This document shows, piece by piece, positions 11,108 through 58,119 of a DNA stretch of 64,000 nucleotides. Origin of the DNA: Candidatus Heimdallarchaeota archaeon (GTDB lineage: Archaea > Asgardarchaeota > Heimdallarchaeia > Heimdallarchaeales > Heimdallarchaeaceae); the NCBI GenBank assembly GCA_030603365.1, contig JAUVXV010000004.1, positions 197,569 to 261,568 on the forward strand, given 5' to 3'. The stretch's first letter is position 1. Every line of letters starts with the position of its first letter. The position numbers were made by a program, and so were the translations under genes. The notes beneath the pieces are model-generated. The model worked only from the letters and a program-made list of their open reading frames with translations, made no database searches and was not told the DNA's origin.

Positions 11108-11172
11108 CGTAGAAAAAATGGAAAGGATTTTTGACAGTAAAGTTATTAATCATGCTCTTCCAGAAAATAATA

Positions 11173-11580
11173 ATGAAACATAGATTGATGGATCTACTTG
11201 CTTGTCCTATTGATAAATCCTGGCCTTTAAAGTTAGAAATCTCTGAAGAAGTGAAGGAAATTGATACAATATCTCTACCTTTAGAAAATCCAAATACAGG
11301 AGTAGTGTGCGGATTCTACTGTAATTTTAAACAATATTCGTTAGTTATAGTAAATGATGCAGACGAAGAAGAAAATAAATCCATAAAAGAAATAAAAGAA
11401 AATGTTAAACTAGAAGATTGCCAAAAATGTTTTCAGATCGACATCCAAAGTGGAAAGCTTCATTGTAATATGGATAAAAGCCACGAGTATGAGATTAAAG
11501 AAGGAATTCCAGTTATGTTATCAAAGGAAAAAATTGAAGAAATCTATGGAAAAAGAAAGAGTAAAAGCAAGAAAAAATAA
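11173..11580 (+). CDS. Trm112-like zinc protein
   Basis: About 135 residues from MKHRLMDLLACPIDK at 11173. The track start is a TTG giving 14 unrelated residues. The opening LMDLLACP, a long insert, the CQKC pair, then HEYEIKEGIPVML are the Trm112 family layout: a small zinc-ribbon partner that stabilises methyltransferases acting on tRNA, rRNA or release factor. The C-terminus is a Lys-rich tail (GKRKSKSKKK). The second cysteine of the usual N-terminal CPxC is missing here (CPID), so zinc binding may differ. Confidence 0.75.
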   Translation: MKHRLMDLLACPIDKSWPLKLEISEEVKEIDTISLPLENPNTGVVCGFYCNFKQYSLVIVNDADEEENKSIKEIKENVKLEDCQKCFQIDIQSGKLHCNMDKSHEYEIKEGIPVMLSKEKIEEIYGKRKSKSKKK

Positions 11581-11921: not shown

Positions 11922-13742
11922 TTATCTATAATCTCTTTTGAAAAGTTCTTCTATGTAATCTTCAATCAGAATTATGACAGTGGGTCTACCATGGGGACAA
12001 GTAAAAGGTTCTTCGAGTGAAAAAAGGTTCTTAAGTAGTGTCTCAGCTTGATCTATTGAAATCTTATCTCCTGCTTTAATCGACCTCCTACATGCAAAAA
12101 TGGATACTAAATCCTTAATGAAATTTAAATCTTCAATTTGAAGATTCTGTTTTATTTCTGAAATATTCTCCTTGATAATGTCAATGATGTCTTTTGCAAC
12201 AGTATAATCAACGGTAACACCCATAATCAATGGAATTGATCGTAATATGATTTCATTCTTACCGAATACATCAATATCAAAACCAAACAACCCAAGGTTC
12301 TCTCGAATTTCATCAAAAACCTCAAACTCAGATGGTTTAAGTGTAATGTTGACAGGAGCGAGTAATTGCTGTATGCTTACTTTCTTTTTCTTAAGCTGTT
12401 CAATGTATTTTTCATAATTGACCTTCTCATGAGCAGCATGTTGATCACATAAGAATAACCCTTCTTCAATCTCAGCTACAATGTAAGTATTCTTTATGAC
12501 CCCAAGAACTCTAATGTCTTTTTTATGTTGAATTATTTCTTCTATCTTAGATTCTGTTTCTCTAGAAGGAGGTAGAAAGGAATCAATACTCTGTTCTTTA
12601 CCTCTAGTAATCCGATATTCTGGTTGTTTTATTCTTCTAGTTGCGGTTGAGATTGTTTTTTTATCTGCTTCAACTTTAGATTTTACTCTGTCTATGTCTA
12701 CAAGAGTAGTAGGTTTGAATCTAGTTTCTAATGTTCTTTCAAATATCTCCAGACCAATATTTTCTAAAGACTCTATAATTGCAGATTCAATTAAGCTATA
12801 TACTTTTGAATCTTTACTGAATCTTACTTCCTTTTTGGTTGGATGAACATTAACATCTACTTCTTCAGTAGGTAGAGAAAGGTATAGAAAAATAACTGGA
12901 AATCTTCCATGTGGAACTGAAGTACCATATCCTCTTAATGTTGCATCTACAATAGTTTTATTGGAGATAGGTCTCATATTAACGAAAGTATAAAGATAAT
13001 CTCTTGATTTTCTAGAAAATTCCGGTTTTGTGATATATCCTTTGATTTGATAACCTTCTTCTTTTTTATCTATTGGGATACATCCTTTAGCAATCTGTTT
13101 GCCAAAAATCGCTGTAATTTGAGTAATTAGGTCACCTTTAGGTGCAGTAAGGATATCTTTTCTATTGTGAGTTAGAGAAAATGCTATTGCTGGTTGTGCA
13201 AGAGCTAAACGAGTGATAAATTCAGTTATGTGATTGATTTCGGTTGAAATTGTTTTGAGGAATTTTCTTCTAACTTGAACATTAAAGAACAGATTCTTTA
13301 CAATAATTCTTGTCCCTACAGCTGTAGATATTTGTTTATCTGTGATTACTTTTCCTCCCTCAATAACAAGGTGTGTGCCTAGTTCATCTTCTTTAGTTCT
13401 AGTAAATATCTCTACTTGAGCTACACTTACAATACTGGCTAAAGCTTCCCCTCTAAACCCTAAGCTATTGATAGAAAAAAGATCATCTGCACTCTTTATT
13501 TTGCTTGTTGTATGACGATTTATAGATAACAAAGCATCATCATGTGACATTCCAATACCATTGTCTATGATTTCGATAAGTTTCTTTCCTCCCTCTTGAA
13601 CATTAATTGTTATCTTGTTACTTTGAGCATCAATTGAGTTTTCTACAATTTCTTTAACTACCGAGGCAGGTCGTTCTATTACTTCTCCTGCTGCAATCTT
13701 ATTGATTGTAAGAGTATCAAGCTCAACTATCTTCATATTCAT
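11922..13742 (-). CDS. mutL: DNA mismatch repair protein MutL (endonuclease type)
   Basis: 606 residues. The N-terminal GHKL ATPase shows IAAGEVIERPASVVKEIVENSIDA, DNGIGM and GFRGEALASI. The C-terminal domain carries the full nicking-endonuclease set: DQHAAHEKVNYE (DQHA-x2-E-x4-E), the ACRRSIKAGD motif and CPHGRPT, so it should cut the nascent strand itself, as in organisms without MutH. A linker of about 100 residues separates the domains. It sits about 60 bases after mutS on the same strand. Length and motifs are normal. Confidence 0.96.
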   Translation of the reverse strand: MNMKIVELDTLTINKIAAGEVIERPASVVKEIVENSIDAQSNKITINVQEGGKKLIEIIDNGIGMSHDDALLSINRHTTSKIKSADDLFSINSLGFRGEALASIVSVAQVEIFTRTKEDELGTHLVIEGGKVITDKQISTAVGTRIIVKNLFFNVQVRRKFLKTISTEINHITEFITRLALAQPAIAFSLTHNRKDILTAPKGDLITQITAIFGKQIAKGCIPIDKKEEGYQIKGYITKPEFSRKSRDYLYTFVNMRPISNKTIVDATLRGYGTSVPHGRFPVIFLYLSLPTEEVDVNVHPTKKEVRFSKDSKVYSLIESAIIESLENIGLEIFERTLETRFKPTTLVDIDRVKSKVEADKKTISTATRRIKQPEYRITRGKEQSIDSFLPPSRETESKIEEIIQHKKDIRVLGVIKNTYIVAEIEEGLFLCDQHAAHEKVNYEKYIEQLKKKKVSIQQLLAPVNITLKPSEFEVFDEIRENLGLFGFDIDVFGKNEIILRSIPLIMGVTVDYTVAKDIIDIIKENISEIKQNLQIEDLNFIKDLVSIFACRRSIKAGDKISIDQAETLLKNLFSLEEPFTCPHGRPTVIILIEDYIEELFKRDYR

Positions 13743-13800
13743 AGAACCTCAGATAATTATTGTTTGTGTTAGGTTGAACACTTATTCCTAGTTCTTATTT

Positions 13801-16443
13801 TTATTTATCTTTTAGAACCTTTTTACTTCTTTCTGTAAGCTTATCTAAGATGTTTAACGCATCTATTGGTTTTAATTCATCCAAACTTATATCTGAAATT
13901 TCATTAATAAACTCTTCAAATTTATTCATCTTCTTTGAGGTGGAATCCTTATCAGTTATTGTTGATGGGATTATCTTCTCTTTTTCATCCTCTGCTCTGT
14001 GAAATTGTGAAAGCAATTTGTTGGAATTATCAATAACATCTTTTGGCAAACCTGCAAGTGATGCAACATGAATACCAAAACTTTCACTAATTCCTCCTTC
14101 TTTTAATTTATAGAGGAAATGGATGTCTCCATTCACATTTTTAATAGAAGCATGATAATTTTTAACTCTTGGAAGTTTGGTTTCTAATTCTATTAGCTCA
14201 TGATAATGAGTTGCAAATAAAGTTCTAGGACCTAACTTTCCAATTTTATTGTGCAGAAACTCAGTAATTGACCAAGCTATTGAAACACCATCGTATGTTG
14301 ATGTGCCTCTACCCACTTCATCGAGAATGACTAAACTTCTTTCAGTTGCGTTATTGAGAATATTTGCACATTCATACATCTCAACCATGAAAGTAGATCT
14401 GTGTTCAACCAACATATCATGAGCTCCAATACGAGTAAATATTCTATCGGTTAATCCTATTGTTGCTGAACTTGCAGGAACAAAACTACCTATTTGTGTC
14501 ATTAAAACAATAAGAGCAACTTGTCTCAAAATCGTGCTTTTTCCTCCCATGTTGGGACCTGTTATAATCAAAATCCTTTCTTTGTTTTTACTTAGACTAA
14601 TATCATTGGGGATAAAAACTGATTGGGAGAGTAATCTTTCAACTACAGGATGTCGTCCCTCTTCTATTTTGATAATATCATCCTTCGTTATATTTGGTTT
14701 TGTGTAATTATAATAAACTGCATTCTGAGCAAATGTGGATATTACATCTACCAATGCAATAAAATAAGCATCTTGCTGGATGATTGTTGCATATTCAGCT
14801 ATTTGCATTAATACATTGTAAAACAACTCCTCTTCCAAGACTAGAATCTTTTCTTCAGCATTAAGGATTTTTTCCTCATATTCCTTTAGTTCAGGGGTAA
14901 TATATCGCTCAGCGTTCACCAATGTTTGTTTTCTTTCATATTGTGTGGGAACCTTATCACTTGAGGCTTTTGGGACTTCAATATAATAGCCAAAAACTTT
15001 GTTAAAACGCACCTTTAGATTTTTAATCCCTGTTTCAACTCTCTCTCTAGCTTCTAAAGATGTTAAGAAAGTTTTACCTCCCTTTTGAATTTTTCTTAAT
15101 TCATCTAACTCTTCATTATAATCTCTACGAATAACATTTCCATCCTTAATGTTTGCGGGGACTTCATCTTCTATACCATTAGCAATAATTTCTACTACTT
15201 CTTCTAAGGGATCTAGGTTCTTGTGTATGTCTTTAAGAAGAGATGAAGTGAATTTTGATATAATAGAACGTATTCCTGGAATTAACTCTAGTGAGTTTTT
15301 TAGTGCAATTAAATCTCTTGGTTTGCTTCTTCCAAGACATATTCGTCCTGTAATTCTTTCTATATCACTAATGTTTGTTAATATGCTCCTGATTTCTTCT
15401 CTTGAAATGCTGTCATTCACTAATTCTTCAGTTGCATCTAATCTACCTTGAATTGTTGAGATATTCAAAATGGGTCTTAAAATTAAAGAAGTAAGAAGCC
15501 TGGATCCTGGAGGTGTTTTCGTATTGTCTAATACTTGTCTTAGAGTACCATGCTCTGTTCTAGCTTGCAAATTTTCAATGAGTTCCAAATTTCGTATTGT
15601 ACTCGAATCCAATATCATATAATCTTGACTTTTAAGTTGACTAATTTTAGTTATATTAGGAAATTTCTCTCTCATTTGTGTTTCTCTAATATATCTAAGA
15701 ACTGCTCCTGCAGCTCCAATAGAAGGGTAAGTCTCATTAACACCAAAACCATCTAAACTAAGAACTTCAAAGAGAGAACGGAGGTCCTTTGAGCCTTGTT
15801 CAATGTCAAAATAAAAGAAATCTCTATAGGTTCTTATTGTTCTACTTTGTTCTCCAAATTCCTTCAAATCAGTACTTAATTGTTCTTCCAATATTATTTC
15901 CGAAGGATTTAGACGAGTTAATTCAACGTTAAGAAGATTTAGAGCTTTTTTTCCCTCAAAATCTGAGACTAAGAATTCTCCTGTGGATAAGTCAAGAGCT
16001 GATAAACCATAGATATTGCTTACTTTATTTATTGCAACAAGATAATTATTTTGTCCCTTAGTAAGAGACTCAGGAAGAGTTATTGTTCCTTTTGTTACTA
16101 ACTGCACAACTCCACGCCTAACAATTTTCTTCGTTGCTTTAGCATCTTCAAGTTGTTCCACTATAGCGATTTTATACCCGTTTTCAACCATTTTAGCAAT
16201 GTAAGAATCTACTGCATGAAAAGGAACACCTGCTAATGGAAACCTTCTGTCTGCGATCGTTCTCGCTGTAAGTGTGATGTTCAAAACTTCTGAAGCAACT
16301 TTTGCATCCTCATTAAAAGTTTCATAAAAATCTCCTGCTCGAAAGAAAATGATATAATCTGGGTGTTGTTTCTTAATGTCCTGCCACTGTTGCATCATTG
16401 GAGTTAACTTAGGCTTAAGCTTCCGATCATCAAATTGCTTCAT
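13801..16443 (-). CDS. mutS: DNA mismatch repair protein MutS
   Basis: An 880-residue MutS1. The N-terminal mismatch-reading domain has the FFRAGDFYETF version of the FYE motif that stacks at the mismatch. The C-terminal ATPase has Walker A GPNMGGKSTILRQ, the Walker B region LVILDEVGRGTST and the switch histidine in FATHYHEL. The C-terminal helical tail is present. It forms an operon with mutL, and deoC lies just upstream. MutS1/MutL pairs are scattered among archaea and usually judged to have come from bacteria; that origin is an inference here. Confidence 0.96.
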   Translation of the reverse strand: MKQFDDRKLKPKLTPMMQQWQDIKKQHPDYIIFFRAGDFYETFNEDAKVASEVLNITLTARTIADRRFPLAGVPFHAVDSYIAKMVENGYKIAIVEQLEDAKATKKIVRRGVVQLVTKGTITLPESLTKGQNNYLVAINKVSNIYGLSALDLSTGEFLVSDFEGKKALNLLNVELTRLNPSEIILEEQLSTDLKEFGEQSRTIRTYRDFFYFDIEQGSKDLRSLFEVLSLDGFGVNETYPSIGAAGAVLRYIRETQMREKFPNITKISQLKSQDYMILDSSTIRNLELIENLQARTEHGTLRQVLDNTKTPPGSRLLTSLILRPILNISTIQGRLDATEELVNDSISREEIRSILTNISDIERITGRICLGRSKPRDLIALKNSLELIPGIRSIISKFTSSLLKDIHKNLDPLEEVVEIIANGIEDEVPANIKDGNVIRRDYNEELDELRKIQKGGKTFLTSLEARERVETGIKNLKVRFNKVFGYYIEVPKASSDKVPTQYERKQTLVNAERYITPELKEYEEKILNAEEKILVLEEELFYNVLMQIAEYATIIQQDAYFIALVDVISTFAQNAVYYNYTKPNITKDDIIKIEEGRHPVVERLLSQSVFIPNDISLSKNKERILIITGPNMGGKSTILRQVALIVLMTQIGSFVPASSATIGLTDRIFTRIGAHDMLVEHRSTFMVEMYECANILNNATERSLVILDEVGRGTSTYDGVSIAWSITEFLHNKIGKLGPRTLFATHYHELIELETKLPRVKNYHASIKNVNGDIHFLYKLKEGGISESFGIHVASLAGLPKDVIDNSNKLLSQFHRAEDEKEKIIPSTITDKDSTSKKMNKFEEFINEISDISLDELKPIDALNILDKLTERSKKVLKDK

Positions 16444-17338: not shown

Positions 17339-17743
17339 TTAAATGCTAGCTACATATTCTTTTTCTATTAATCTTCGAAATTCTTCGATTTTTTTATGGA
17401 TTGTAACAGCTTCCTTCTTGACGATGCTTGGTATTTTTCCAAAACCAAGAGCTTTTTCATAACATTTAGAGAAATAATTTAATTGAAAAACTAGTTGAAC
17501 AACTCTGGCATATTGAAATACTTGATCAGGATTAGTAACAAGTGCTACCTTTAAGGAGATTTCATTTTGTTCCTCTGGACTCAAATCAATGTTTAAACCT
17601 AATCGATTACATAAATCAAATAACTTATTGAGCATGAGTCTTCCTTTCTTTAGAACTTGCGCCAGCTCTGAAGCGACGTCAGAAAGTCCAGGTACTTCTT
17701 TGCCAATTGTTTCGGCACTCTCGGTTATACTTTCAAGATGCAT
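17339..17743 (-). CDS. Hypothetical helical protein
   Basis: 134 residues, predicted all-alpha, soluble, no recognised family. The middle is acidic to neutral (LNIDLSPEEQNEISLKVALVT) and the end is a charged helix (KKIEEFRRLIEKEY). It precedes deoC on the same strand with a gap of about 60 bases containing a short AT-rich stretch. Its regular start, spacing and codon use support a real gene. Confidence 0.55.
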   Translation of the reverse strand: MHLESITESAETIGKEVPGLSDVASELAQVLKKGRLMLNKLFDLCNRLGLNIDLSPEEQNEISLKVALVTNPDQVFQYARVVQLVFQLNYFSKCYEKALGFGKIPSIVKKEAVTIHKKIEEFRRLIEKEYVASI

Positions 17744-17847: not shown

Positions 17848-19938
17848 TTAAGGTTCTAAGAGCATTCTGAGATATAATAACTCACCATCAATATCATTTT
17901 TTAGTTTTTCAATGGTTTGTTGTCTATCTTGGAACATTTTAACATATGACTCTCTAGTCATAATAGTCTTCTTAACTCTGTATTCTTGTTGAAGCACACG
18001 TAGATTCCTTCGTTCTTCATAGAGTTTTCTTTCAGCAATTTCAATCTTCTGGACAGCTTGCTTGTATCTTCCACCATGTTTCACTAGAGTTTCTTTGGTC
18101 TGTTTTAGATTAACTTCTTCAGCTCTTAGACGTTTTTCTAGTTTAGCAATCAAATCCTTTCCTTCTTTAGCTTTCATTTTCTTTGAAGCGACTTTGATTC
18201 TAGTTTCTCTCAACCTTTCCTTAATTGAAAGAACCTCTTCATACTGTTTAACAAATTCTTCAATTTCATCAAATGGAATAAATTCTTTATCAGAATCGCT
18301 TATAACTAGATCTTTAGTTTTCTTTGATGACCATCTAATACCCAAATAAATAGCGAATACGACTCCAACTGTAATTACTTGGAAGAAATATGTGATAAGT
18401 ACATTTAATCTTGAATATGTAAATTCAATGATTAAGGGAGCATTATCATTCCCTGTAAAGGTAGTAAATGAAAAACTAAGGATTCTTCTGAAACCTAGAG
18501 AAACAAAATCGAATTTTTTATTGTAGTTAATAATCAAGTCTTGATAAGGATCGGGGTTATTGTATCTAATCTCGTGATATACTGCTCCTTTTGGAAGAAT
18601 TACATCTACATTTAATTTTTCTACGGTCCAATTAATGATTGAACAAGGCTCAAATCTCATCCTGTAATTTATACTTCCTTGTTCTTTCTGTAGATATACT
18701 TCCATAGGTACAGTATAAACAATTGTAAAAGTAAAATCTTCTCCATGGAATAAAGGAGTTCGTGGAAAAATGACTAATGCGTCATGACCAATAAATACAC
18801 TTGGTCGTTGATTATATGATCCAGGTTCGAAAATTAGATTATCATCTAGTTGATAATTTTGATTTAGTCCACCAACATCATCATAAAGTTCTAGAACCGT
18901 TGCATTCTTGGGTAATATAACTGGAAAAGAGTTCAGAGCCCACAATTTAAGGCTGTAAAGAGCCTCATTATCAGGTCTTTTAGGACCGAAGTAATAGAGT
19001 GATTGCTCTTCAGTAATCTTAATCAAACCAAAAGGATCAACCTCAATTCTTCGGTTTATCTCTGTTGCCTTGAACAGCATTGTATTGGCAGGATTTTCTA
19101 TATCTCCACCTGCTGCAATCGCTGTAAGATAGACATTCATGTGTACGTCGTCTTCATATGATTGTGAGTAATTGAAAGGTTGTCTTGTTATATTGTACCA
19201 TTTAACTAAACCTTGCTCATTATCAACTGTTTTGAAAATACCTCTCGTTCCATTGGTTGGAGTAATTCTGTCAGTTAAGAAAACATCTCCACCTTGTCTT
19301 TGCACCCATACTGAACAATTAATTATTGGTAAATTGTTAATTAATGGGTAAATTAGCTCTTGGTAATGAAGAACTTGTTCTCCCCCTTCTAACCAGTATG
19401 AATATGGGTATGCAAACTCAATGTAGGTATTAATGAATATTTCTTCACCTTGTCCATAGCTTGTTTCATTAACATGTAATGGAATGATAAAAGTTGTATA
19501 ATTTATTCCCTTTTGATAAGTATAAGTTCTCATAGATGTTGAGTTACCTATCGACTCATATGATTCATTTGAAACACGGAATCCTGCAAATGTAATGTTC
19601 TTGTTGTTAATATTAGGCAAGGTATAATTGAAGTAAGTTATATTCACATTTCCAATAATATCAAGTTTTATTGAGTCAACCAACGATAATACGCCAAAAG
19701 TTTGAATTTCAATAGTCCTGTTAACTGATGTTGTGGCATTCATCCCGTAATCATATACAAAATCACTTGTTAGAGACAATTCGTCTGTTGAGGGAACGGG
19801 TATGTTAATTCTATCTGGTTGAATAATTGGTAAATCTGTAGATTGATTTGCTTGTATTAGACCATACATTACTGAAAATGACATGGAAACTGCAAATAAT
19901 ATAGCTAAAGTAACAATTGTACTTCTTGTTTTCTTCAT
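17848..19938 (-). CDS. Ribophorin I (OST1)-like membrane glycoprotein
   Basis: 696 residues from ATG 19938, preceded by CGAGG; the track start is an upstream TTG. Residues 3-30 are a signal/anchor. Two outside beta-rich domains follow, each opening like OST1: TVNRTIEIQTFGVLSLVDSIKLD and INRRIEVDPFGLIKITEEQ. Family-like landmarks in the second are PLFHGEDFTFTIVYTVP, INYRMRFEP and VILPKGAVYHEI. A membrane segment at about 512-535 (YFFQVITVGVVFAIYLGI) is followed by about 160 residues of charged coiled coil ending IEKLKNDIDGELLYL, matching the cytosolic tail of animal ribophorin I. Many N-x-S/T sequons are present. OST1 is an oligosaccharyltransferase subunit in eukaryotes; the role here is inferred. 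Confidence 0.75.
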   Translation of the reverse strand: MKKTRSTIVTLAILFAVSMSFSVMYGLIQANQSTDLPIIQPDRINIPVPSTDELSLTSDFVYDYGMNATTSVNRTIEIQTFGVLSLVDSIKLDIIGNVNITYFNYTLPNINNKNITFAGFRVSNESYESIGNSTSMRTYTYQKGINYTTFIIPLHVNETSYGQGEEIFINTYIEFAYPYSYWLEGGEQVLHYQELIYPLINNLPIINCSVWVQRQGGDVFLTDRITPTNGTRGIFKTVDNEQGLVKWYNITRQPFNYSQSYEDDVHMNVYLTAIAAGGDIENPANTMLFKATEINRRIEVDPFGLIKITEEQSLYYFGPKRPDNEALYSLKLWALNSFPVILPKNATVLELYDDVGGLNQNYQLDDNLIFEPGSYNQRPSVFIGHDALVIFPRTPLFHGEDFTFTIVYTVPMEVYLQKEQGSINYRMRFEPCSIINWTVEKLNVDVILPKGAVYHEIRYNNPDPYQDLIINYNKKFDFVSLGFRRILSFSFTTFTGNDNAPLIIEFTYSRLNVLITYFFQVITVGVVFAIYLGIRWSSKKTKDLVISDSDKEFIPFDEIEEFVKQYEEVLSIKERLRETRIKVASKKMKAKEGKDLIAKLEKRLRAEEVNLKQTKETLVKHGGRYKQAVQKIEIAERKLYEERRNLRVLQQEYRVKKTIMTRESYVKMFQDRQQTIEKLKNDIDGELLYLRMLLEP

Positions 19939-20881: not shown

Positions 20882-21451
20882 ATGAGCGAAGAAAAGAACT
20901 ATTTTGTTCATCCTTCAGCTTTTGTTGAAGAAAATGTTACTATTGGTGAAAGAACCAAAATATGGCACTTAGTTCAAGTAAGAGGGGGCGCTAAAATAGG
21001 TGAAGATTGTAATTTTGGAAAATCAGTATTCATTGATTCAAACGTTTCTATTGGAAATAATGTTAAAATCCAAAACTTTGTCTCTGTCTATCAAGGAGTT
21101 ACTATTGAAGATGATGTTTTTATTGGACCTCATGTTTGCTTTACTAATGATTATCTTCCACGATCTTTCATTTCTGATTGGAAATTGGTTAAAACTGAAG
21201 TGAAAAAAGGTGCATCTATTGGTGCAAATGCAACCATTGTGTGTGGGATTACAATCGGTGAGTATGCGATGATTGGAGCAGGTAGTTTGGTTTCCAAAGA
21301 TGTACCTCATCATGCATTGGTTTATGGTAATCCTGCTAAGTTCAAGGGATATGTTTGTTCCTGTGGAAACATAGTGAAGAAAACTCAAGACTATTTACTA
21401 GAAGGGACAATATTGGAATGTGATAAATGTAACAAAACAGTCGTAATTTAG
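20882..21451 (+). CDS. Left-handed beta-helix N-acetyltransferase (WbpD/WlbB-like)
   Basis: 189 residues. Repeated hexapeptides (VTIGERTKI, AKIGEDCNF, VSIGNNVKI, VTIEDDVFIG) form a left-handed helix, followed by FIGPHVCFTND and the GASIGANATIVCGITIG stretch characteristic of sugar N-acetyltransferases making UDP-2,3-diacetamido sugars. After the helix comes a small cysteine-bearing tail (YVCSCGNIV, LECDKCNKTVVI) that looks like a zinc ribbon. It likely supplies an acetylated amino sugar for the nearby glycan genes. Confidence 0.87.
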   Translation: MSEEKNYFVHPSAFVEENVTIGERTKIWHLVQVRGGAKIGEDCNFGKSVFIDSNVSIGNNVKIQNFVSVYQGVTIEDDVFIGPHVCFTNDYLPRSFISDWKLVKTEVKKGASIGANATIVCGITIGEYAMIGAGSLVSKDVPHHALVYGNPAKFKGYVCSCGNIVKKTQDYLLEGTILECDKCNKTVVI

Positions 21452-21868: not shown

Positions 21869-21965
21869 TCTAATCTCATAATAAAAGCAGATATATGCCA
21901 TTTGAAGAAACGCTAGGTTTAACAAATGGGGAACCATAATTTTTAGTAATAAGTAGTTGATTCAA

Positions 21966-23045
21966 ATGACAGACATGGTTGATTCTAAAGGTAGTGACGA
22001 AGTACAAACTTCTACTGAAGAATTATCTGAAGACAAACCACAAACACCATTGTCAAGATTCATCTCAAAATCAAAAAGAGAGGTCTCAACTTTTTCATCT
22101 AAAGCATATCAGAAACTTGAACCAATCATTTTTCCTTTGAAAAATAAATATGTTAGGTATACTCTTTCTGCAATCCTTTTTGGTCTAGTTATTGCGCTCT
22201 ATGTTCTATATGAAACATATCCTGGAGTTGAAAATACTGCATTACGTGCTTTTCTTGTTCCGATAGGATTGGTTCTTGCAACAATTCTAGTCTTCTATAT
22301 AACTTGGGATGATCCCTATTTCAGAAAATATAGATCTCCAGGAATATATGTTGTAGTATTAACTACTATCTTTTACATTTTCATCTTTACAGACATTTCC
22401 GACCTATTGTTTAGCACAACACTTGCAACCTGGTTAACGAAATCTACTGGTTTTCTTACTTCTTCAATTGTAGAAGCTTTTGGGATAAACATATCTGATG
22501 TAGCTTGGCAATCTTTTCCCACATACGAGAAAGTAAATTGGATGAATAGAACTACATTCTTCCTTAGTTCACCTGAAGAATTAACATCGTATATGTCACT
22601 TGTGAGTATAAAATGGATGACTAGAATAGTATTCTTTAACGCCCCCAGTGAACAAGGATCTCTGTATATTGACGCTGCTTGTAGTGGTATTCATTCTTTA
22701 ACAGTTTTTACTGCTGTATTTCTTTTAATGCTTTTTGAGGCTCGTAAACGCCTTCAATGGACTTACACAACTATCTTAGTAACTCTGATTGGAATCATTG
22801 GAACCTACATCATGAATCTAATTAGAATTATGATAATAATCTCACTCTATTATTATCAAGGTTCCTCCATTGCTGGTCCAGTGCATAATTATCTGGGCTA
22901 TGTAATTTTGATTATTTGGCTTCCTATTTTCTGGTTATATGTTCTCCCTCTTGGTGAGAAGAAGGAAGTAAAACAAGAAAGAAAGTTAAGAAGACAAGAA
23001 AAGAAGGAACAAAAGAAGAAAAAGACAGATTTAGAGCAATTGTAG
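21966..23045 (+). CDS. Archaeosortase/exosortase family membrane protease
   Basis: 359 residues from ATG 21966; the track start is an upstream TTG. A soluble N-terminal region of about 60 residues precedes some seven membrane segments. The catalytic triad of the family is visible: Cys in IDAACSGIHSLT, Arg in YIMNLIRIMIII and His in GPVHNYLGYV. The C-terminus is a Lys/Glu-rich tail (RRQEKKEQKKKK). Archaeosortases cut and attach surface proteins bearing a C-terminal sorting signal. Residues 180-225 form an outside insertion. It sits beside the glycosyltransferase cluster, which fits a role in cell-surface assembly. No clear PGF-CTERM-type substrate lies in this window. Confidence 0.85.
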   Translation: MTDMVDSKGSDEVQTSTEELSEDKPQTPLSRFISKSKREVSTFSSKAYQKLEPIIFPLKNKYVRYTLSAILFGLVIALYVLYETYPGVENTALRAFLVPIGLVLATILVFYITWDDPYFRKYRSPGIYVVVLTTIFYIFIFTDISDLLFSTTLATWLTKSTGFLTSSIVEAFGINISDVAWQSFPTYEKVNWMNRTTFFLSSPEELTSYMSLVSIKWMTRIVFFNAPSEQGSLYIDAACSGIHSLTVFTAVFLLMLFEARKRLQWTYTTILVTLIGIIGTYIMNLIRIMIIISLYYYQGSSIAGPVHNYLGYVILIIWLPIFWLYVLPLGEKKEVKQERKLRRQEKKEQKKKKTDLEQL

Positions 23046-57125: not shown

Positions 57126-57231
57126 TGGTATCAGTTATCTCCAAAGTATATTGATACTTATAAGGATAATCTATTAGAAACAATCTACATAGCTTTAAAT
57201 ATGCTTTTTCGCAAATATAATGTGATTGCTC

Positions 57232-58119
57232 ATGAGAGCAGCTTTGAAAAATTACTCTTATGGAATAGTACTAGTTTTGTTTTTGGTTTGTTCTAGTGGT
57301 ATTCAAACCCAAGGTGCTACTTGGGATAGTTATGCTTCAGAGTATGAATATACTCAATTGACAAAAGGAATCCTTTATCCAGGTGGAGAACCTCATGAGG
57401 TAACAATAGAGGATACATTCAAAGTGTGGAATGTAACTACAGTTAGTGATAAAGTGTATTTCAGAACGAATTTTACTCCTTACTTTATGGGATTGATGCA
57501 TTTTGAAAATCAAGAGGAGTATGATACTTATTTATCAGAACATTATTGGTACGATAATGATACCGATAGTATGTCCCTTGCATATTCAGTTGTAGGAACA
57601 AATTTCTACTTTGTAGATATGTTAGATTCTACTCTTCATTATAATGGAACAATGTCTGATTTTGATATTAGGTTAATTAAACATCATATGTATGGTTTGT
57701 TTTTACCTGTTAATCATCCATCTTTCAACTTCAAAACTGTTTATGCAACGAGTTTTCCTATTGAAGAACCACTACATGATGTAAACTTTCAGCAAAAAGA
57801 CACATTCACACTGGATAAGATGAGATATAATGGATATTATTTGTATTTGGAATATTCTTATTTCTCTACATTTATTCGAATTGATTATAGTATAGAGCTG
57901 ATGTATTCTTCTATAGGCGAGTTATATTTCTCCAAAATTACTATTTTTATGTATAATGAAGACTTTGAACAACCTGTGGAAGATTTTGAAGTTACATTTT
58001 CACTGAATCCAGAATACAGATTTAATGGTACTGAAGTTACTTGGGCAAGTTCATTAGTTATTCTAAGTTCACTCATGATTGTGACTTATGCATACATCAG
58101 ATTCAGAAGAGATCATTAG
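57232..58119 (+). CDS. Secreted surface protein with C-terminal membrane anchor
   Basis: 295 residues from ATG 57232; the track start is a TTG. Residues 1-28 are a signal peptide (YSYGIVLVLFLVCSSG). A Tyr/Asp/Asn-rich, beta-type outside domain with several N-x-S/T sites follows. The end is a membrane helix (WASSLVILSSLMIVTYAYI) with a short basic tail (RFRRDH), a layout also used by sortase-type sorting signals. No family was recognised. It is a candidate substrate for N-glycosylation. Confidence 0.7.
   Translation: MRAALKNYSYGIVLVLFLVCSSGIQTQGATWDSYASEYEYTQLTKGILYPGGEPHEVTIEDTFKVWNVTTVSDKVYFRTNFTPYFMGLMHFENQEEYDTYLSEHYWYDNDTDSMSLAYSVVGTNFYFVDMLDSTLHYNGTMSDFDIRLIKHHMYGLFLPVNHPSFNFKTVYATSFPIEEPLHDVNFQQKDTFTLDKMRYNGYYLYLEYSYFSTFIRIDYSIELMYSSIGELYFSKITIFMYNEDFEQPVEDFEVTFSLNPEYRFNGTEVTWASSLVILSSLMIVTYAYIRFRRDH

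Follow-up and report, generated by a model that had tools for sequence, protein, structure and literature searches.

In human cells, OST1 (ribophorin I) partners the enzyme by which exported proteins receive their sugar chains. It is among the subunits that set the eukaryotic oligosaccharyltransferase (OST) apart from its single-chain counterpart in prokaryotes, and it ties glycosylation to the ribosome-bound translocon. Asgard archaea also encode OST1, as an earlier note on this DNA had stated and as the literature bears out: Eme et al. (2023; PMC10307638) list OST1 and five other OST subunits, and the protein of strain MK-D1 (Candidatus Prometheoarchaeum syntrophicum, WP_147663064.1) was reported in 2024 to localise to the ER in human cells, and its cytosolic tail crystallised as a four-helix bundle (PDB 8WHN) and bound human ribosomes in pull-down (PMC11417166). 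Because Asgard OST1 was already known before 2023, the identification made here is not new, and what this study adds to the known family is a description of its gene neighbourhoods and of a sequon coat. We found neither these neighbourhoods, nor a sequon-rich domain 1, nor the frequent acetyltransferase neighbour in any of the open-licence full texts searched (without supplements).

The window analysed here, a stretch of 64,000 nucleotides (C14:197569-261568), contains an OST1 gene whose product is built like MK-D1 OST1: a signal and an outer part, then one membrane helix, then a four-helix bundle in the cytosol. The MK-D1 protein is about 607 aa long and comes from another Asgard class, whereas the window protein has 696 aa and a sequon-rich domain 1. 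Human OST1 (PDB 6S7O, 8B6L) has the same plan and fold, including the tail bundle, but only about 15% identity, and belongs to an ER complex. Yeast Ost1 (PDB 6C26, 6EZN) shares the two outer domains and the membrane helix, but its solved chain (476 aa) stops past that helix and, unlike the window protein, has no tail bundle. The nearest named relative in a single-protein search, with 81% identity and nothing notable that differs, was OST1 of Candidatus Heimdallarchaeota MAG C4.bin.22 (JAAFKJ010000047.1, locus L035), and by this identity the source genome is a Heimdallarchaeota relative. Gene order around OST1 is common to the two genomes for about 18 kb; eukaryotic contamination as the source of the gene was ruled out by this shared archaeal gene order.

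The features considered below are collected in Table 1. The OST1 reading frame, with its stop codon counted in, begins at an ATG at position 19938. An alternative TTG start lies 33 bp upstream and would add 11 residues, but the ATG is favoured because close relatives share its position.

Table 1. Features of the OST1 gene, its product and its neighbours in the window.
Feature	Position	Strand	Basis
OST1 (ribophorin I) homologue, 696 aa	17848..19938	-	PF04597 E=8.6e-17; profile vs human OST1 E=5.7e-36; OST1 fold match
N-terminal hydrophobic signal (predicted), residues 1-30	19849..19938	-	hydropathy; model helix 2-31
Outer domain 1, about residues 66-275, sequon-rich	19114..19743	-	all-beta in model; human OST1 profile match; beyond PF04597
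Outer domain 2, about residues 286-508	18415..19083	-	PF04597 positions 194-435
Single membrane helix, about residues 510-535	18334..18411	-	hydropathy; model helix 510-540
Cytosolic four-helix bundle, residues 555-694	17857..18276	-	8whn profile E=3e-28; TM 0.86, rmsd 2.2
orf134, conserved 134-aa protein encoded immediately downstream of OST1	17339..17743	-	75-93% identical in genus, 56% in second genus
Hexapeptide sugar acetyltransferase, WlbB/WbpD-like	20882..21451	+	PF00132; closest solved protein 3mqg E=5.9e-49
Trm112-like zinc protein	11131..11580	+	PF03966

The earlier note had read the protein as a ribophorin I-like OST subunit and proposed a PF04597 search and a comparison of folds as checks. 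All of the motifs that it named (RTIEIQTFG, RRIEVDPFG, PLFHGED, YRMRFEP and ILPKGA) were found in the translation, and its reading was upheld by PF04597, by profile matches to human and yeast OST1, and by the predicted fold. With a score of 61.8 bits (cut-off 25), the PF04597 (Ribophorin_I) match placed residues 285-533 on profile positions 194-435, corresponding to the second outer domain, and a genome-wide profile search returned this gene as the only PF04597 gene in the source genome. When the single sequence was searched against the PDB, human OST1 was found weakly (E=0.00067). A profile built from the window protein and 23 Asgard relatives (24 sequences) matched human OST1 over human residues 36-582 (E=5.7e-36), yeast OST1 (E=4.5e-24) and the MK-D1 cytosolic domain 8WHN (E=3e-28). 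These matches to human OST1 and 8WHN indicate that domain 1 and the tail, which lie outside the reach of PF04597 here, are also OST1.

Hydropathy gave two hydrophobic stretches, the signal at about residues 5-30 and the membrane helix at about 510-535, and both were present in the AlphaFold2 model, as expected from the signal and the single membrane helix after the second outer domain that had been read from the letters. In the model (mean pLDDT 78.6, pTM 0.60), the outer domains are beta-rich, the membrane helix is long and the tail forms four helices. A Foldseek search of the PDB found the OST1 fold, with human and yeast OST1 occupying ranks 1-8 (E 1.7e-29 to 2.7e-21, target TM 0.59-0.77). 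The rmsd was about 20 against the human chains that carry a tail and 4.7 against the tail-less human chain; the larger value probably reflects differing placement of the tail in the model. Compared with 8WHN in Foldseek, the tail of the model gave a TM of 0.86 and an rmsd of 2.2, at 18% identity. The charged tail past the membrane helix spans about 156 aa, close to the 160 residues previously given for it, and its likeness to that of animal ribophorin I was confirmed by a profile alignment covering most of the human tail, but the simple coiled coil that had been proposed was replaced by four helices matching the known four-helix bundle.

By sequence and predicted fold, the window protein is a homologue of OST1/ribophorin I. 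We consider it, with a probability of roughly 0.85, to be a true homologue that most likely serves as an accessory subunit of the AglB/STT3 oligosaccharyltransferase at the Sec translocon. Two beta-rich domains would lie outside the membrane, followed by one crossing helix and a four-helix bundle in the cytosol. The bundle might hold the ribosome close to the Sec translocon, given the ribosome binding seen for the MK-D1 homologue, while the outer domains, placed beside AglB, could aid N-glycosylation by presenting nascent exported chains. OST1 would presumably form a complex with AglB and influence glycosylation, by binding or stimulating it.

A partner for such a complex is encoded in the same genome. 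The single STT3/AglB match in the genome, carrying WWDYG and SVSE motifs, was at C14:41154-42347 (E=1.7e-50), on the same contig and about 173 kb from OST1. The statement that the window holds no STT3/AglB was accordingly correct, and the proposed check for association with AglB gave a divided answer, since a WWDYG-bearing AglB is present but is not adjacent to OST1. Among the matches listed across the phylum, the distance between the two genes was tens of kilobases at best where one contig has both. Other OST subunits were also sought in the source genome. The C-terminal part of OST3/6 gave a match below the cut-off (E=1.1e-5), a TRAP-beta match was present, and OST48/WBP1, DAD1 and OST5 had no Pfam match in this genome, in searches run without a positive control, so that their absence is not shown.

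The lack of adjacency between AglB and OST1 is one of the observations in favour of a different use of the protein in Asgard archaea, in which it would serve mainly to dock ribosomes at the Sec translocon and have no role in N-glycosylation. The ribosome binding of the MK-D1 tail (PMC11417166) agrees with this, as does the arrangement in one Heimdall genus, where all six fetched loci that reach SecY have it divergent from OST1 and 0.5 kb away (L045:8245-12354, L046, L062, L074, L076 and L078), the coordinates of a seventh genome agreeing; SecY was present in 0/20 random loci. In three genomes of this genus, STT3 was 36-39 kb away. We nonetheless consider a docking role without glycosylation unlikely, because large outer domains have been retained that a mere ribosome anchor would not need, and because genes of glycan synthesis lie beside OST1 in other Asgard families.

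DPAGT1/Alg7 starts the synthesis of the lipid-linked glycan. A comparison covering the OST1 loci of 17 Asgard families and 20 random Asgard loci placed a PF00953 transferase close to OST1 in six families, all other than that of the window, and no random locus had one; its best solved match was human DPAGT1 (E=7.7e-13), ahead of bacterial MraY. Since the neighbour families were picked after some of the loci had been viewed, only held-out counts should be weighed. With the source family of the profile left out, the DPAGT1-like transferase was near OST1 in 5/16 families compared with 0/20 random loci (Fisher p=0.012). A Trm112-like gene was also near OST1 in six Asgard families, with held-out counts of 3/14 families and 0/20 random loci (p=0.06). 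It is directly downstream of OST1 in L052, L053, L066-L068, L071, L072, L077 and other loci, and in its product a large insertion interrupts the zinc domain (216 aa for family f8). A hexapeptide acetyltransferase was near OST1 in eight Asgard families versus 1/20 random loci; these neighbours vary in length and may not all be orthologues. Like the DPAGT1-like transferase, the sugar acetyltransferases and glycosyltransferases often found beside OST1 argue against a protein confined to ribosome docking. The proximity of OST1 to N-glycosylation and translocon genes in relatives supports its involvement in N-glycosylation at the translocon; this genetic support, from the DPAGT1-like, SecY, acetyltransferase and Trm112-like neighbourhoods, is independent of sequence similarity. 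The Trm112-like gene is a candidate for a new N-glycosylation factor, open to testing.

In the window genome, the acetyltransferase is 0.9 kb and the Trm112-like gene 6 kb from OST1, and the DPAGT1-like and SecY genes sit on another contig. The further surroundings of OST1 comprise orf134, DeoC, MutS, MutL, a ThiF protein, an exosortase-like protein and several glycosyltransferases. The small protein orf134, which had no Pfam or NCBIfam match, adjoins OST1 in the genus and is better conserved there than OST1; it is on the same strand, and the two genes are possibly co-transcribed. The adjoining MutL and MutS homologues (window 11922-16443, minus strand) are downstream of OST1 and DeoC and are kept in the genus, and the exosortase/archaeosortase family protein (TIGR04178; window 21957-23045, plus strand) is near the glycosyltransferases.

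The distribution of N-X-S/T sequons along OST1 fits its predicted orientation, with 16 ahead of the membrane helix and none in the tail behind it. Domain 1 (residues 65-285) contained 13 of these, compared with 3.5 expected by shuffling. The excess was seen in every class member tested and in one further family (f17), and was weaker or absent in the remaining tested families. The sequons at N67, N146, N229 and N256, and at N436 in domain 2, were retained in 17-19 of the 24 sequences, a set with many close kin. No excess was seen in window proteins that lack membrane segments (56 sequons observed, 58.6 expected). A predicted exported protein of 297 aa in the window (57226-58119, plus strand) had 6 sequons where 2.6 were expected. 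The conserved excess suggests, at the level of sequence, that Heimdallarchaeia OST1 is itself a multi-site target of AglB, and from the sequons we infer that domain 1 may be heavily glycosylated.

A sequon content that is kept across the class and far exceeds that of other window proteins also raises the possibility that in Heimdallarchaeia this OST1 descendant has left the oligosaccharyltransferase and become a heavily glycosylated surface or substrate-capturing protein. The failure of PF04597 to recognise domain 1 in most class members would agree with such a change. We think this very improbable, since the tail, the membrane helix and domain 2 are all retained as in OST1, and the class forms a clade that tracks kinship, suggesting one role inherited vertically. 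Least credible of all is a chance resemblance, the protein being an unrelated Ig-like surface protein that ends in a coiled-coil tail; the model does match other beta-sandwich proteins too, but with much weaker E-values, and the idea is refuted by the profile match to human OST1, spanning domain 1 into the tail, and by the eight OST1 structures ranked first.

The sequons and the neighbourhoods might be joined in a wider proposal, which we put forward tentatively and consider less likely than not. Heimdallarchaeia OST1 would be a major glycoprotein, with about a dozen N-glycans forming a conserved coat on domain 1 and shaping the encounter of AglB with the nascent chain. Asgard archaea would also retain an ancestral unit on the chromosome, made up of OST1, the DPAGT1-like starter enzyme and the Trm112-like zinc protein, the last of these being an unrecognised N-glycosylation factor.

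PF04597 was matched in 106 of 196 Asgard genomes, and most of the Asgard genomes searched have STT3. The lack of a PF04597 match in about half of the genomes weighs against the subunit reading and implies that OST1 is either often too diverged to detect or dispensable. In a tree of OST1 proteins, the class formed one clade (support 96/98) with branching that follows kinship, a pattern which suggests vertical inheritance. Human and yeast OST1 attached with weak support (69/69), beside a very long branch, and we therefore make no claim on which Asgard lineage stands nearest to eukaryotes. A further clear Heimdall OST1, with a form conserved across the class, helps to date the rise of the multi-subunit oligosaccharyltransferase. 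Across the phylum sample, PF04597 matched most strongly in family f14 (L002:1294-2634, E=2.4e-41), in a gene within which the contig ends. Alignments showed that the sequon at position 299 of human OST1 is absent from the window protein but present in several other Asgard OST1s, which, like the f14 protein, have a G-N-[LIV]-[ST] sequon at the position of human N299.
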